Origin: an uncultured Bacteroidales bacterium
GTDB taxonomy: Bacteria; Bacteroidota; Bacteroidia; Bacteroidales; F082
Assembly (NCBI GenBank): GCA_946185535.1
Contig: CAMHJX010000017.1
Location: 1 to 64,000, forward strand
Direction of reading: 5' to 3'
DNA: 64,000 nucleotides
Part shown: piece after piece, positions 15,093 to 55,159 of the stretch
Position numbering within the stretch: position 1 is the first letter of the stretch
Layout: every line of letters begins with the position of its first letter
Program-made: the position numbers and the translations under genes
The notes under the pieces: generated by a model
Told to the model about the DNA's origin: nothing
The model's input: the letters and a program-made list of their open reading frames with translations, nothing else
The model's database searches: none

Positions 15093-15100
15093 TAATTTTG
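15093..15100 (+). promoter_or_regulatory. -7 element driving the structured leader at 15165-15363
   Basis: TAATTTTG with a TTG at 15072-15074 (18-base spacer). The ATG of the next gene is 326 bases downstream, which leaves room for a long leader or a separate RNA. Confidence 0.55.
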
Positions 15101-15164
15101 CACCGATAAAACCACGAATAGTAACCCATAAATCGAAATGGATATGCAATAAAAGCGCAGATTT

Positions 15165-15363
15165 GCGTGAAATGAAACGACATAAATAACAGCATTAAAC
15201 TTGATTCTTCTCCATTAGAAATTTGGCGATTTTTAGGATGATATCACAAGTTAATAGGCTACATGCTCATGGTATAGCGTGAGATGGACTTATTTCTTGG
15301 TGATATCGGGTTACGCCAAATACCTTAATGGAGCGGGAAACGAGGAAGTTTCACGCTTTTTTT
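15165..15363 (+). ncRNA. Long rod-shaped structured RNA (leader or small RNA), copy A
   Basis: Nested inverted repeats read by eye: GCGTGAAA 15165-15172 with TTTCACGC 15349-15356; CTCCATTA 15210-15217 with TAATGGAG 15326-15333; TTTGGCG 15222-15228 with CGCCAAA 15314-15320; TGATATC with TGATATC (15239 and 15301); AAGT with ACTT; and a terminal CTCA/TGAG hairpin at 15266-15283. Seven T residues follow the outer helix. The promoter at 15093 and the T-run show forward-strand transcription. The fold could be a cis-acting leader of the lipoprotein gene at 15427, or a separate RNA such as a 6S-like rod. Confidence 0.6.
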
Positions 15364-15426
15364 GTGCTTGTTTGGAAACAGAAACTAGTCAATTAAACAA
15401 GTAATAACAATTAAAATCACAAGAAA

Positions 15427-16608
15427 ATGAAAACAATCATGAAGGCTACAGCAGCCATAATGCTGATGATGGCGGTGATGATGACCGCAGGATGCACAAA
15501 AGACCCAAACAATGGGGGAAACAATAGCGGTGGTAATGGAGGCAGTAGCGGTGGTGGCTCAAATCCATCAACCGAAGGTATCTATTTGGGCATCATTGGT
15601 TTCAACAACGGAATCATTGAACCTATTAAAGAAATCAGTTTGTTGAACGCCTCTACTAAGAATCAGTTCCTTAGTTATATTGGGAACTTACAGAAAGGTA
15701 GGCTTACAGGCCTCTATTATGCAGATTACATGGGCCTTGAGAAGTTGAAGACCTATCAGAAACCTCCAAAACTCCAAAATGTGTCTTTGGTAACGTTCAC
15801 CGATGGATTAGACAACTATTCAACACAGGAAGGAGTAATGAATCCGAACAACTATCTTGACCCTGATGACTATAGGGATTATCTGAACAATAGAATAAGA
15901 AATGAGAATATCCATGGATTGCCAATAACGGCCTACTCCATCGGACTTAGGGGTGCTGACATTCAAGCCAACAACGTTCCCAGATTCCGAACTATTTTGG
16001 AAAAACTCGCAAGCCCTAACAAATCATATATGGCTGAAAACATGGCCCAAGTCAATCAACAATTCCAGGTAATTGCCCAAGAGCTCAGCCACACTTATTA
16101 TAATTCTAACGTTTCTTTGGCTGTGCCACCAGCGTATTATCCTAACGAACAAATCCGTTTTACATTCGATTTAAATCAAAGTGCAACAAGTCCTGCCAAT
16201 TCCAGCCTTTACATAACTGCCACTTACGAAAAAACATCCAACAGTAGAGTGCTGAAAAATATAACCTACAGCGGATTCAAGAACAATGTTTCTAACAACG
16301 AGTCTTTTGAAAAGGATGCCGATGGTTTCTTTGTTTTCAAGTTTGCTGATTTGAGATATTCAAACGACCAAACGGTTTCATCTTCCGATTTGAGCAGGGT
16401 TAGGCTATGGCACAAACCCACAGATGGAGATTGGACACCTGAGTCGGAATTCAAGCCAGGCCAATCCACAAGCTCCGAGGTTGATAAAAACAGTGCTTTG
16501 ATAATGCTTGTACTCGACTGCACAGACTCGATGGGCGACAACTTCATCGACATGAAGAATCACGCAAAAAACTTTGTGAACACTCTTGTTTCGGCAAGCA
16601 GCAATTAA
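15427..16608 (+). CDS. Lipoprotein with rearranged VWA-like segments
   Basis: 393-residue lipoprotein: the hydrophobic signal ends in the lipobox MMTAGC (lipidated Cys23), followed by a Gly/Ser/Asn-rich linker (residues 30-48). The middle segment has NVSLVTFTDGLDNYST near residue 120, the usual MIDAS Asp strand of VWA domains. A second MIDAS-like motif, LVLDCTDSMGDNF, appears only at residues 361-375, close to the C-terminus, whereas in ordinary VWA domains DxSxS precedes the FTDG strand. It is probably attached to an envelope membrane and involved in metal-dependent binding. It is followed after 21 bases by a CUB-domain lipoprotein. Confidence 0.8.
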   Translation: MKTIMKATAAIMLMMAVMMTAGCTKDPNNGGNNSGGNGGSSGGGSNPSTEGIYLGIIGFNNGIIEPIKEISLLNASTKNQFLSYIGNLQKGRLTGLYYADYMGLEKLKTYQKPPKLQNVSLVTFTDGLDNYSTQEGVMNPNNYLDPDDYRDYLNNRIRNENIHGLPITAYSIGLRGADIQANNVPRFRTILEKLASPNKSYMAENMAQVNQQFQVIAQELSHTYYNSNVSLAVPPAYYPNEQIRFTFDLNQSATSPANSSLYITATYEKTSNSRVLKNITYSGFKNNVSNNESFEKDADGFFVFKFADLRYSNDQTVSSSDLSRVRLWHKPTDGDWTPESEFKPGQSTSSEVDKNSALIMLVLDCTDSMGDNFIDMKNHAKNFVNTLVSASSN

Positions 16609-35355: not shown

Positions 35356-35363
35356 TATCTTTG
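35356..35363 (+). promoter_or_regulatory. -7 element driving structured RNA copy B
   Basis: TATCTTTG with TTTG at 35335-35338 (17-base spacer). The start codon of the next gene is 267 bases downstream. Confidence 0.65.
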
Positions 35364-35402
35364 CAAATGATTTGGTTCGCCAGGTCGACAAATTATTTTA
35401 TT

Positions 35403-35570
35403 GAAGCGTTATGCTTATCTTGAAATTTGGGAATGTAGGAGTTTTCAAAAAGCAACGAGTAATCATAGCGGCTTCCACGCTTGTTATGCGTGGACTGCTA
35501 TACCACAAAGTTGCTTTAGGTATCCTACAACCTCCAATTTCTGAGTGGCCTACAGTTCCACGCTTCTTTT
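35403..35570 (+). ncRNA. Long rod-shaped structured RNA (leader or 6S-like RNA), copy B
   Basis: Six nested helices seen by eye: GAAGCGT 35403-35409 with ACGCTTC 35560-35566; GAAATT 35422-35427 with AATTTC 35536-35541; GTAGGA 35435-35440 with TCCTAC 35523-35528; AGCAAC 35451-35456 with GTTGCT 35510-35515; ATAGCGG 35465-35471 with CTGCTAT 35495-35501; CCACGC 35475-35480 with GCGTGG 35488-35493 around TTGTTAT. A T-rich run follows. The elongated rod with internal loops recalls 6S RNA, but the position 60 bases before a start codon and a shared 3' block with 15165-15363 also fit a cis-acting leader. Confidence 0.6.
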
Positions 35571-35629
35571 GTGTCTAATAGTTTGCATCCTTGTATGAAT
35601 AGTAATAATCATCTTAAAATCAATTTATT

Positions 35630-36832
35630 ATGAAAACAAGAAGAATTCTTTTCGCTGCGTTGCTTCTCTTGGGAACCTCATTGTCATCCTATGCACAAAC
35701 CTTGCAAGCCAACTACATTACGACTGCTGTGCCTTTCCTATCGAATATCCCTGATGCTCGTGGAGCCTCGCTGGGCTTTAGTGGTGTTGCCACCAGCCCT
35801 GATGCTTTCAGCATGTTTTACAATCCAGCCAAATATGCCTTCATGTCGAACGACCATACCATGATAGCTTCTGGATTCAATGCGTATACCACTTTCCCGA
35901 ATCAATACTTGTTGTATGACGCTTTCGCTCAGAGAATTGGCAACTCGGTTATTGCTGCCACGGCACGATATCATCGTTGTGGCGATATAGAGTTATATGA
36001 CGCATATCACCAATCTCTTGGATACTATAGGCCGCAGGAATTTGCCGTGGATGTTGCCTGTTCCTATCGTTTTGGCGATTATTTGTCTGCAGGTGTTGCA
36101 GGGCGTTTTATCCATTACGCTCTGAATACAAGTATGCCAGGATATAACGCCAAATCCAGTTCGGTTGCGGGTGATGTTTCTGCCTATTACAAACGCCCGT
36201 TGGGCAATTTGGTTGACATGTCATTGGGTGCCGCCATTACCAACATTGGCACGAAGATGTCATATAGTTATGCCGAGGGTCGTAAGGATTTCATCCCAAC
36301 AACGCTGCGACTTGGCTCGTGCTTCAAGTTCAACTTCCATCCCAAGAACACCCTTGCCGTGAATCTGGAATTCAACAAATTGATGGTGCCTACGCCTCCT
36401 ATCGTTGCAAGGGATGATTATGGGAATTACATGTACAATGACGATGGTTCCTATCAGATTTTGTATGGAATGGACAATAATGTCTCGGTGTTCCGAGGTA
36501 TGTTCCAATCCTTCTTCGACGCTCCTGGCTATACTATGAATTATGTCACAGGAGATTATGAGCGCATCGGCTCGTTTTACGAGGAACTTTGTGAAGTGAA
36601 TACGGGAATCGGTATTGAATACAATCTAGCCGATCATTTCTTCGTCAGGACGGGTTATTACCATGTGCCAGACTTGAAAGGTCGCGTGGATTGCCTGACC
36701 GAGGGTTTGGGTATGAAGTTCGGTATATTTGGTATGGATATTTCTTATTCCTGGTATTATAAGACTGGTGTTATCGTGAACAGTCAATTTGAAAGGAGCC
36801 GCCTTCGTTGGGACATGTACTTCGCTTTCTAA
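35630..36832 (+). CDS. Second PorV-like outer-membrane protein
   Basis: 400 residues. Signal peptide ending LGTSLSSYAQ, then the PorV opening PFLSNIPDARGASLGFSGVA, followed by TSPDAFSMFYNPAKYAF. Barrel strands match PorV throughout, including RKDFIPTTLRLGSCFKFNF and KLMVPTPPIVARDD, which are nearly shared with porV at 30876. It is a clear paralogue. In Porphyromonas, PorV and its homologues PorQ and PG0027 are distinct; this protein is closer to PorV by the shared barrel motifs. It may serve a subset of cargo. It stands alone behind the structured RNA, with no PorU-like neighbour. Confidence 0.85.
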   Translation: MKTRRILFAALLLLGTSLSSYAQTLQANYITTAVPFLSNIPDARGASLGFSGVATSPDAFSMFYNPAKYAFMSNDHTMIASGFNAYTTFPNQYLLYDAFAQRIGNSVIAATARYHRCGDIELYDAYHQSLGYYRPQEFAVDVACSYRFGDYLSAGVAGRFIHYALNTSMPGYNAKSSSVAGDVSAYYKRPLGNLVDMSLGAAITNIGTKMSYSYAEGRKDFIPTTLRLGSCFKFNFHPKNTLAVNLEFNKLMVPTPPIVARDDYGNYMYNDDGSYQILYGMDNNVSVFRGMFQSFFDAPGYTMNYVTGDYERIGSFYEELCEVNTGIGIEYNLADHFFVRTGYYHVPDLKGRVDCLTEGLGMKFGIFGMDISYSWYYKTGVIVNSQFERSRLRWDMYFAF

Positions 36833-54582: not shown

Positions 54583-54831
54583 TTACGGCCAATTGACATC
54601 GGTCAGGTTCATGGATTCCGTTCCGCCGCCGGCGTAGGTTGCCGCGACACCGCCCGAGGCACATAAAATGCCTTGGGGCTCAATCTCTATGATCTCCACT
54701 TTGGGAGCCTCATAGGATCGCCTCATTTTGAGGCTGAGTTTTGATACTGTCATAATGCGTTTTTCTGCATTTTGCGCCAACTCAGACACCCTCTCATTGG
54801 CAGGTTCGTTGGATAATGATTCAGAAAACAT
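54583..54831 (-). CDS. Small protein with EAPKVEIIEI motif and glycine-rich tail
   Basis: 82 residues from ATG at 54831; internal Met27 (54753) or Met36 are possible starts. The core SYEAPKVEIIEIEPQGILCASGG is quoted here only as YEAPKVEIIEIEPQG plus ILCASGG. It is followed by a Gly/Ala-rich stretch (VAATYAGGGTE) and ends in DVNWP. Short Bacteroidales proteins of the pattern 'YEAP-x-E-(V/I) ... G(I/V)LCxSG' are common in front of lipoprotein genes; their function is unknown. The Gly-Gly and cysteine after a predicted strand recall peptide precursors, but no modification or transport gene is next to it. Co-transcribed with the FISUMP lipoprotein. Confidence 0.6.
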   Translation of the reverse strand: MFSESLSNEPANERVSELAQNAEKRIMTVSKLSLKMRRSYEAPKVEIIEIEPQGILCASGGVAATYAGGGTESMNLTDVNWP

Positions 54832-54860
54832 ATAGAAAAAAGCGCGGGTATCATGTCTAT

Positions 54861-55096
54861 TGCATTATCCCGCATTTCGAGGCTCTCGCATGCCCACCAA
54901 CCGAGGATAAGCAATACCGAAAGCCCACGCTATAGACCACATCAATTCAACTATAGACATATTCAGACCGAAAAACAATCAATACTGAATAGAATCAAAC
55001 AAGTTGAACGTATCATCTATCATAAATGGGCATCGACTATTGCCTTACCGTGCGGTTGGTTGAATTTGCGAGATTCGAAATGCCGCAGATAAAGCG
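54861..55096. repeat. MITE-like element: imperfect inverted arms of about 67-70 nt
   Basis: The arm at 54861-54927 (TGCATTATCCCGCATTTCGA and on) aligns with the reverse complement of 55027-55096 over GCATTTCGA..CTCGCA..ACCAACCG..AAG.CAATA..GCCCA. The centre of about 100 nt is A/T-rich. No target duplication could be recognised. Confidence 0.5.
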
Positions 55097-55151
55097 TAGT
55101 ACAACGCCTTCTCAATATGTCTGCCAAGCGCATTGCTCGCGTTTGACAGGG

Positions 55152-55159
55152 CAAAAATA
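55152..55159 (-). promoter_or_regulatory. -7 element upstream of the small-protein/FISUMP unit
   Basis: TATTTTTG on the reverse strand. The surrounding 50 bases resemble the region of the promoter at 3440-3447. The first gene downstream starts about 320 bases away. Confidence 0.45.

Follow-up and report, generated by a model that had tools for sequence, protein, structure and literature searches.

A family of structured leader RNAs ahead of unrelated genes in Bacteroidia, with a putative switch between a terminator and a rod

We examined a 64,000-nucleotide (nt) stretch of DNA (hereafter the window) from an uncultured Bacteroidales bacterium of the GTDB lineage F082 (assembly GCA_946185535.1, contig CAMHJX010000017.1, positions 1 to 64,000, forward strand), which carries three copies of a leader RNA of about 200 bases: A and B on the plus strand and C, recognized by eye, on the minus strand (Table 1). 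An earlier note, made without database searches, had described A and B as one cis-regulatory leader, common to both and as yet without a name, that contains a terminator and lies ahead of unrelated genes. Its details were borne out on the sequence: 18 of 20 positions are identical between 15347-15366 and 35554-35573, AGTAATAACAATTAAAATCA lies at 15400-15419, promoter boxes stand upstream of both leaders, and both start codons fall about 60 bases past the T-run (15357-15363 to 15427 in A; a tract end at about 35571 to 35630 in B). Both leaders are strongly structured, as had been claimed, with folds of -71 kcal/mol for A (z = -4.65) and -67.7 kcal/mol for B (z = -4.96), each equalled by none of 200 shuffles. 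A and B proved real, and the third copy, at about 55120-54835 on the minus strand, had been missed.

A pattern for the 3' end occurred at 19 sites in the window's genome, compared with seven for the reversed pattern; folding of the sequence upstream of these 19 sites gave eight members of two types, the remaining 11 being non-members by eye. R1, a covariance model whose only seeds were four A-type copies, recovered unseen B-type copies at expect values (E) of 3.5e-8, 3.7e-7 and 5.2e-7, and copy B itself at 0.0021, in a search of 24 kb. R1 also yielded four further copies in the window's genome, belonging to two additional types. At E ≤ 0.01, it matched 33 of the 60 genomes searched, own genome included. 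A and B are therefore related, as the note had held, but their likeness extends to the whole element and is not limited to the 3' end. A family-wide model (R2) was built from alignment A6, which comprises 41 members from the window's genome and its relatives and excludes one wrongly cut locus (L055); copies A and B are both among the 41 seeds, so their R2 scores are not independent. The window's genome contains 25 copies at E ≤ 0.005 with R2, of which 12 are seeds, and three more (L108-L110, E 0.08-0.1) that resemble members by eye. One of these (L108, at C13:24366-24607) is a long-insert version resembling copy C. Our set of 206 members, 28 of them from the window's genome, consists of distinct search hits after removal of reverse-strand shadows (in L063, L064, L065, L068, L055 and L153), same-place duplicates (judged by equal score), the contig-end hit L116, L189 and a weak second hit in L190, with L108-L110 added by hand.

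Searches with R2 at E ≤ 0.001, own genome included, detected the RNA in 116 of 295 genomes and 82 of 183 genera of the order, and in 70 of 295 genomes and 41 of 156 genera of the class, with 64 of those 70 genomes coming from other orders; these genome counts are lower bounds, since eight candidates were scored per genome. All four Chryseobacterium genomes found by a 17-mer (three named strains and one metagenome bin) have five to eight matches at E ≤ 0.1 and four to eight at E ≤ 0.01. Outside Bacteroidota, none of 19 genomes chosen for the same 17-mer matched at E ≤ 0.01, and two had one match each, at 0.02 and 0.08. A covariance-model search of the kind proposed in the note returned many homologues with covarying helices. 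At three Chryseobacterium loci (L340, L348 and L349), the proteins behind the leader, 134-215 nt away from it, are related to one another, look secreted and have IKSSTQDFLSQVTTTIDQQYLITGSSIQ in common close to their start.

The position of the RNA relative to promoter and gene is regular. Of 202 members, 149 have a TANNTTTG box no more than 150 nt upstream, compared with 12% in shuffles, and just 3 of the 168 gaps that separate the U-tract from the start codon contain a promoter box. Both flanks were long enough to judge in 107 members; 94 of these are followed on the same strand by an open reading frame (ORF) of at least 60 amino acids (aa) starting within 120 nt, and 15 have one leading outward on the other strand. 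Because the box stands upstream and is rare in the gap, and an ORF begins close downstream, the RNA is most simply read, on sequence grounds, as the opening stretch of the gene's mRNA, placed as attenuators are, after a promoter and ahead of the coding sequence. The same counts argue against an independent small RNA gene that carries its own terminator, beside a downstream gene that has a separate promoter and is only incidentally a neighbor; the RNA does have its own promoter box, a compact fold and a U-tract end, but we consider this explanation very unlikely.

The 92 nt up to the P0 hairpin contain ATG-NNN-stop in 69 of 204 members against 27 expected, and in 21 of 73 after dereplication against 8.2, with a variable middle codon. 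Among start-stop spacings of 0 to 12, only 3 stands out (others, 9-28 versus 22-27). A leader-peptide attenuator was rejected as a candidate: in these 92 nt, frames of ATG, zero to seven codons and a stop are unenriched except for the one-codon frame (68 of 204 against 23 in this comparison) with its variable codon.

Two alternative folds are predicted for the same sequence. In the first, the two halves of the RNA pair into a long rod of helices P1, P2, P3, P4 and an apical P5, with unpaired joining regions in which GAAA faces ACCU and AUUUU faces GGGU. In an alignment of 104 rows, 103 of them distinct (A7), 24 of 29 rod pairs changed on both sides (21.3 in shuffles), including all seven pairs of P2, and the covariation score reached 0.476, where shuffles gave 0.208 and slid partners no more than 0.132. 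P3, which A7 leaves unaligned, is not included in these figures. Across 194 members (the distinct rows of A7 and a further alignment, A9, which also served for comparisons of the halves), a member's own P1 duplex was better than 97.6%, and its own P3 duplex than 95.9%, of duplexes formed with other members' partners; P2 reached 95.0%, in a test that is circular for this helix because P2 was located by complementarity. RNAalifold applied to A6 gave the apical hairpin alone during model building and, in a separate run, the apical hairpin and P2 together with a P0-T helix and some isolated base pairs.

In the second fold, each half folds separately. Segments X and T pair in 187 of 194 predicted folds of the 3' half, forming a hairpin followed by a U-tract, as in attenuators. 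The tract has at least six Ts in eight in 176 of 185 members, where a pattern already requiring four Ts found one. A short stem, b:b', reads GGT/ACC in 137 and GGC/GCC in 21 of 186 parsed members. Segment X is used by both P5 and X:T, so that the rod supplies the competing pairing expected of an antiterminator. The terminator proposed in the note is therefore supported, but as an alternative fold of the 3' half, not as the rod that had been traced there, and termination itself is a prediction. A small-molecule riboswitch, in which the GAAA/ACCU and AUUUU/GGGU joining regions of the rod would form the pocket for a ligand, with the terminator serving as expression platform, would fit the conservation of these regions, the many copies and the terminator-like 3' end. 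However, GGGU/ACCU at least is accounted for by stem b:b' of the other fold, and the Pfam families listed for the downstream genes (25 of 74) have no common metabolic theme, making a riboswitch distinctly unlikely.

Table 1 Coordinates of the three leader copies in the window, their parts and the genes behind them
Feature	Position	Strand	Remark
Copy A -7 promoter box TAATTTTG	15093..15100	+	
Copy A two-codon mini-ORF ATG-CAA-TAA in leader	15144..15152	+	
Copy A leader RNA	15179..15370	+	R2 match 114.1 bits, E 9.1e-19; R2 seed
Copy A P1 5' strand	15210..15217	+	partner 15326-15333
Copy A P2 5' strand	15221..15228	+	partner CGCCAAAT at 15314-15321
Copy A segment X AGCGTGAG	15276..15283	+	partner: apical 5' strand, or T
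Copy A GGGTTA-CGCCAAAT-ACC	15308..15324	+	short hairpin b:b', loop is the P2 3' strand
Copy A segment T GTTTCACGCT and T-run	15348..15363	+	T-run itself 15357-15363
Copy A downstream gene, lipoprotein	15427..16608	+	VWA-like in the earlier note
Copy B -7 promoter box TATCTTTG	35356..35363	+	
Copy B leader RNA	35393..35577	+	R2 match 91.5 bits, E 8.3e-15; R2 seed
Copy B P0 hairpin GAAGCGTTATGCTT	35403..35416	+	
Copy B P2 5' strand	35434..35440	+	partner TCCTACA at 35523-35529
Copy B segment X ATGCGTGGA	35486..35494	+	
Copy B segment T GTTCCACGC and pyrimidine tract CTTCTTTT	35555..35571	+	
Copy B downstream gene, PorV-like	35630..36832	+	
Copy C -7 promoter box TATTTTTG	55152..55159	-	
Copy C leader RNA, large apical insert	about 54835..55120	-	by eye: P0, P1, P2, P3, GGGC...GCC, X, T, T-run
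Copy C downstream gene, 47-aa peptide	54583..54726	-	longer ORF 54583-54831 also in ORF list

The position of the element, its family, the covarying pairings of both folds and the U-tract are directly supported. On this basis we favor, with a probability of roughly 0.65, a switch between a terminator (the 3' half alone) and an antiterminator (the rod). When the 3' half folds alone, the X:T hairpin and U-tract would stop transcription; when the two halves pair into the rod, X would be engaged in P5 and transcription would read through. We further infer a factor that shifts the balance, for which a protein bound at P0 is a candidate, such as one encoded by either of the two NusG-family genes in the window's genome, as are a metabolite or a ribosome at the mini-ORF.

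Some results count against the identification of the individual copies. In the 24-kb search, reverse-strand shadows of the A copies score E 1.4e-4 to 0.011 with R1, because the element is near-palindromic, and over the whole genome copy B reaches only E 0.33; the R1 match to copy B alone is therefore unconvincing. Copy C is only a weak match to R2 (54828-55024, E 0.036), and a reverse shadow of copy A scores 0.029. As for the switch, the 5' half shows no unusual stability by itself in the copies of the window, which slightly lowers our confidence in the switch and raises it in a constitutive 5' untranslated region, where the rod would be the only working structure, shielding the mRNA from ribonucleases or Rho or insulating it from upstream context, and the U-tract would not terminate. 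The rod is favored over the halves by 13 kcal/mol on average and covariation is strongest in P1-P3, both in keeping with such a region, although we judge it unlikely overall.

The terminator-rod switch would act on a varied set of genes. We scanned 148 of 173 non-redundant downstream proteins; Pfam matched 74 families and PADLOC 221, with 25 listed in each case. Among the Pfam families listed were Por_Secre_tail (8 proteins), LRR_5 (5), MethyltransfD12, ResIII and N6_N4_Mtase (3 each), VWA, CsgG and LytTR (2 each), and Mrr_cat_2 and PorV (PF19572; 1 each); the PADLOC families listed comprised 23 methyltransferase models, mad2 (6 members) and PbeA (2). Of the 123 proteins with 150 aa or more, 82 had an export-like N terminus and 29 a lipobox; the 50 shorter proteins gave 17 and 3. 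Among 345 other ORFs at the same loci, likewise no shorter than 150 aa, the counts were 101 and 21. Both patterns are crude, and this background (other ATG ORFs in six frames) may include false ORFs. Separately, peptides with the core EAPxxExIEIEPQGILCAS stand behind three leaders of the window's genome (copy C, L011 and L103).

Three leaders (L087, L127 and L035) are 87-91% identical, with 86-96% identity in the 50 bases that follow. Over their first 120 residues, the proteins behind these leaders align at 28-33% and look unrelated. Since similar leaders precede unlike proteins, promoter, leader and translation start may move together as a cassette. Similar leaders ahead of unlike genes would also be left by a mobile palindromic DNA element, of the type of miniature inverted-repeat transposable elements, inserting by chance before genes, as would many dispersed copies, several of which lie near contig ends in the fragmented genome G051. 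However, the regular position between promoter box and start codon, helix sequences that differ between copies while pairing is kept, and the lack of matches in plasmid records (three copies) or phage records (one copy) make such an element extremely unlikely.

Attenuators and transcriptional riboswitch platforms place a leader with mutually exclusive pairings, ending in a hairpin and U-tract, between promoter and gene. The RNA described here is alike in all these respects but differs in having two complementary halves, each self-foldable, in its many copies ahead of unrelated genes, and in that no aptamer, leader peptide of usual length or Rfam match was recognized in the tested copies. Control by a NusG paralogue is familiar from UpxY and the capsule operons of Bacteroides. 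In the LoaP-responsive dfn and mln leaders of Bacillus, a small recognition hairpin is followed by a large terminator (PMC12691694); P0 occupies the place of that hairpin, but no UNCG hairpin was noticed here, and the genes are varied rather than long biosynthetic operons.

With Rfam 15, no match exceeded the gathering threshold in the window and none reached E ≤ 5 in copy A; L008 gave only two eukaryotic families (E 3.5-3.7), and 19 member loci, at E ≤ 1, only DUF805b downstream of the leader and, beyond the limits of the RNA at L217:740-824, microRNA models. The DUF805b RNA (RF02914) is likewise cis-regulatory but is a separate 35-nt motif, and identity with it was rejected: its model matches the downstream gap, not the leader. 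It has three matches at E < 1e-6 in the window's genome, two of them over the cut-off and one adjoining a leader of the present family. At L106:1448-1480 (-) and L295:603-638 (+), the motif lies between leader and start codon, two cis-elements in series, with matches above the family cut-off at L106 and below it at L295. A similar stretch with AATTTAGGGA occurs just before the start codon at L307, behind a DUF805b leader, and at L095 and L019, behind leaders of the present family. Of the computationally found Bacteroidota RNAs Flavo-1, Bacteroidales-1, Bacteroides-1, Bacteroid-trp and 6S-Flavo (Weinberg 2010; PMC2864571), none matched at E ≤ 1 in the 19 member loci, nor did copy A or L008 show any of them at E ≤ 5. 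The consulted portions of the open-licence PubMed Central literature, including PMC8040213, PMC9723704, PMC2864571, PMC7366714 and PMC12691694, contained no description of the leader RNA. Among them, palindromic terminator candidates in Bacteroidetes are mentioned (PMC8040213) and 64 structured 5' regions are listed for Flavobacterium psychrophilum (PMC9723704); a fragment of the family could be among these candidates, and its absence from print is therefore unproved. The note's proposal of a shared, unnamed cis-regulatory leader before unrelated genes is nonetheless favored by the covariation, the placement of the promoter box and the lack of Rfam matches in the tested copies.

Together, these results describe an RNA class that is large: a single genome has 25 copies or more, members occur across Bacteroidia, and the tested copies have no match in Rfam 15. 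This class precedes genes by which Bacteroidia meet hosts, rivals and phages, and probably contributes to the on-or-off control of genes for surface proteins and DNA-modifying enzymes. Its fold, of two complementary and self-foldable halves, makes a sharp, testable model, and the Chryseobacterium strains that carry the RNA open it to testing in culture. More tentatively, and on balance doubtfully, a promoter-plus-leader cassette may have spread through Bacteroidia by copying from gene to gene, placing surface proteins, cargo of the type IX secretion system and restriction-modification genes under one two-state switch, off when the hairpins stand apart and on when they kiss and zip into the rod. 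If this were true, surface and defence genes could vary from cell to cell without DNA inversion, or could respond to one global signal.
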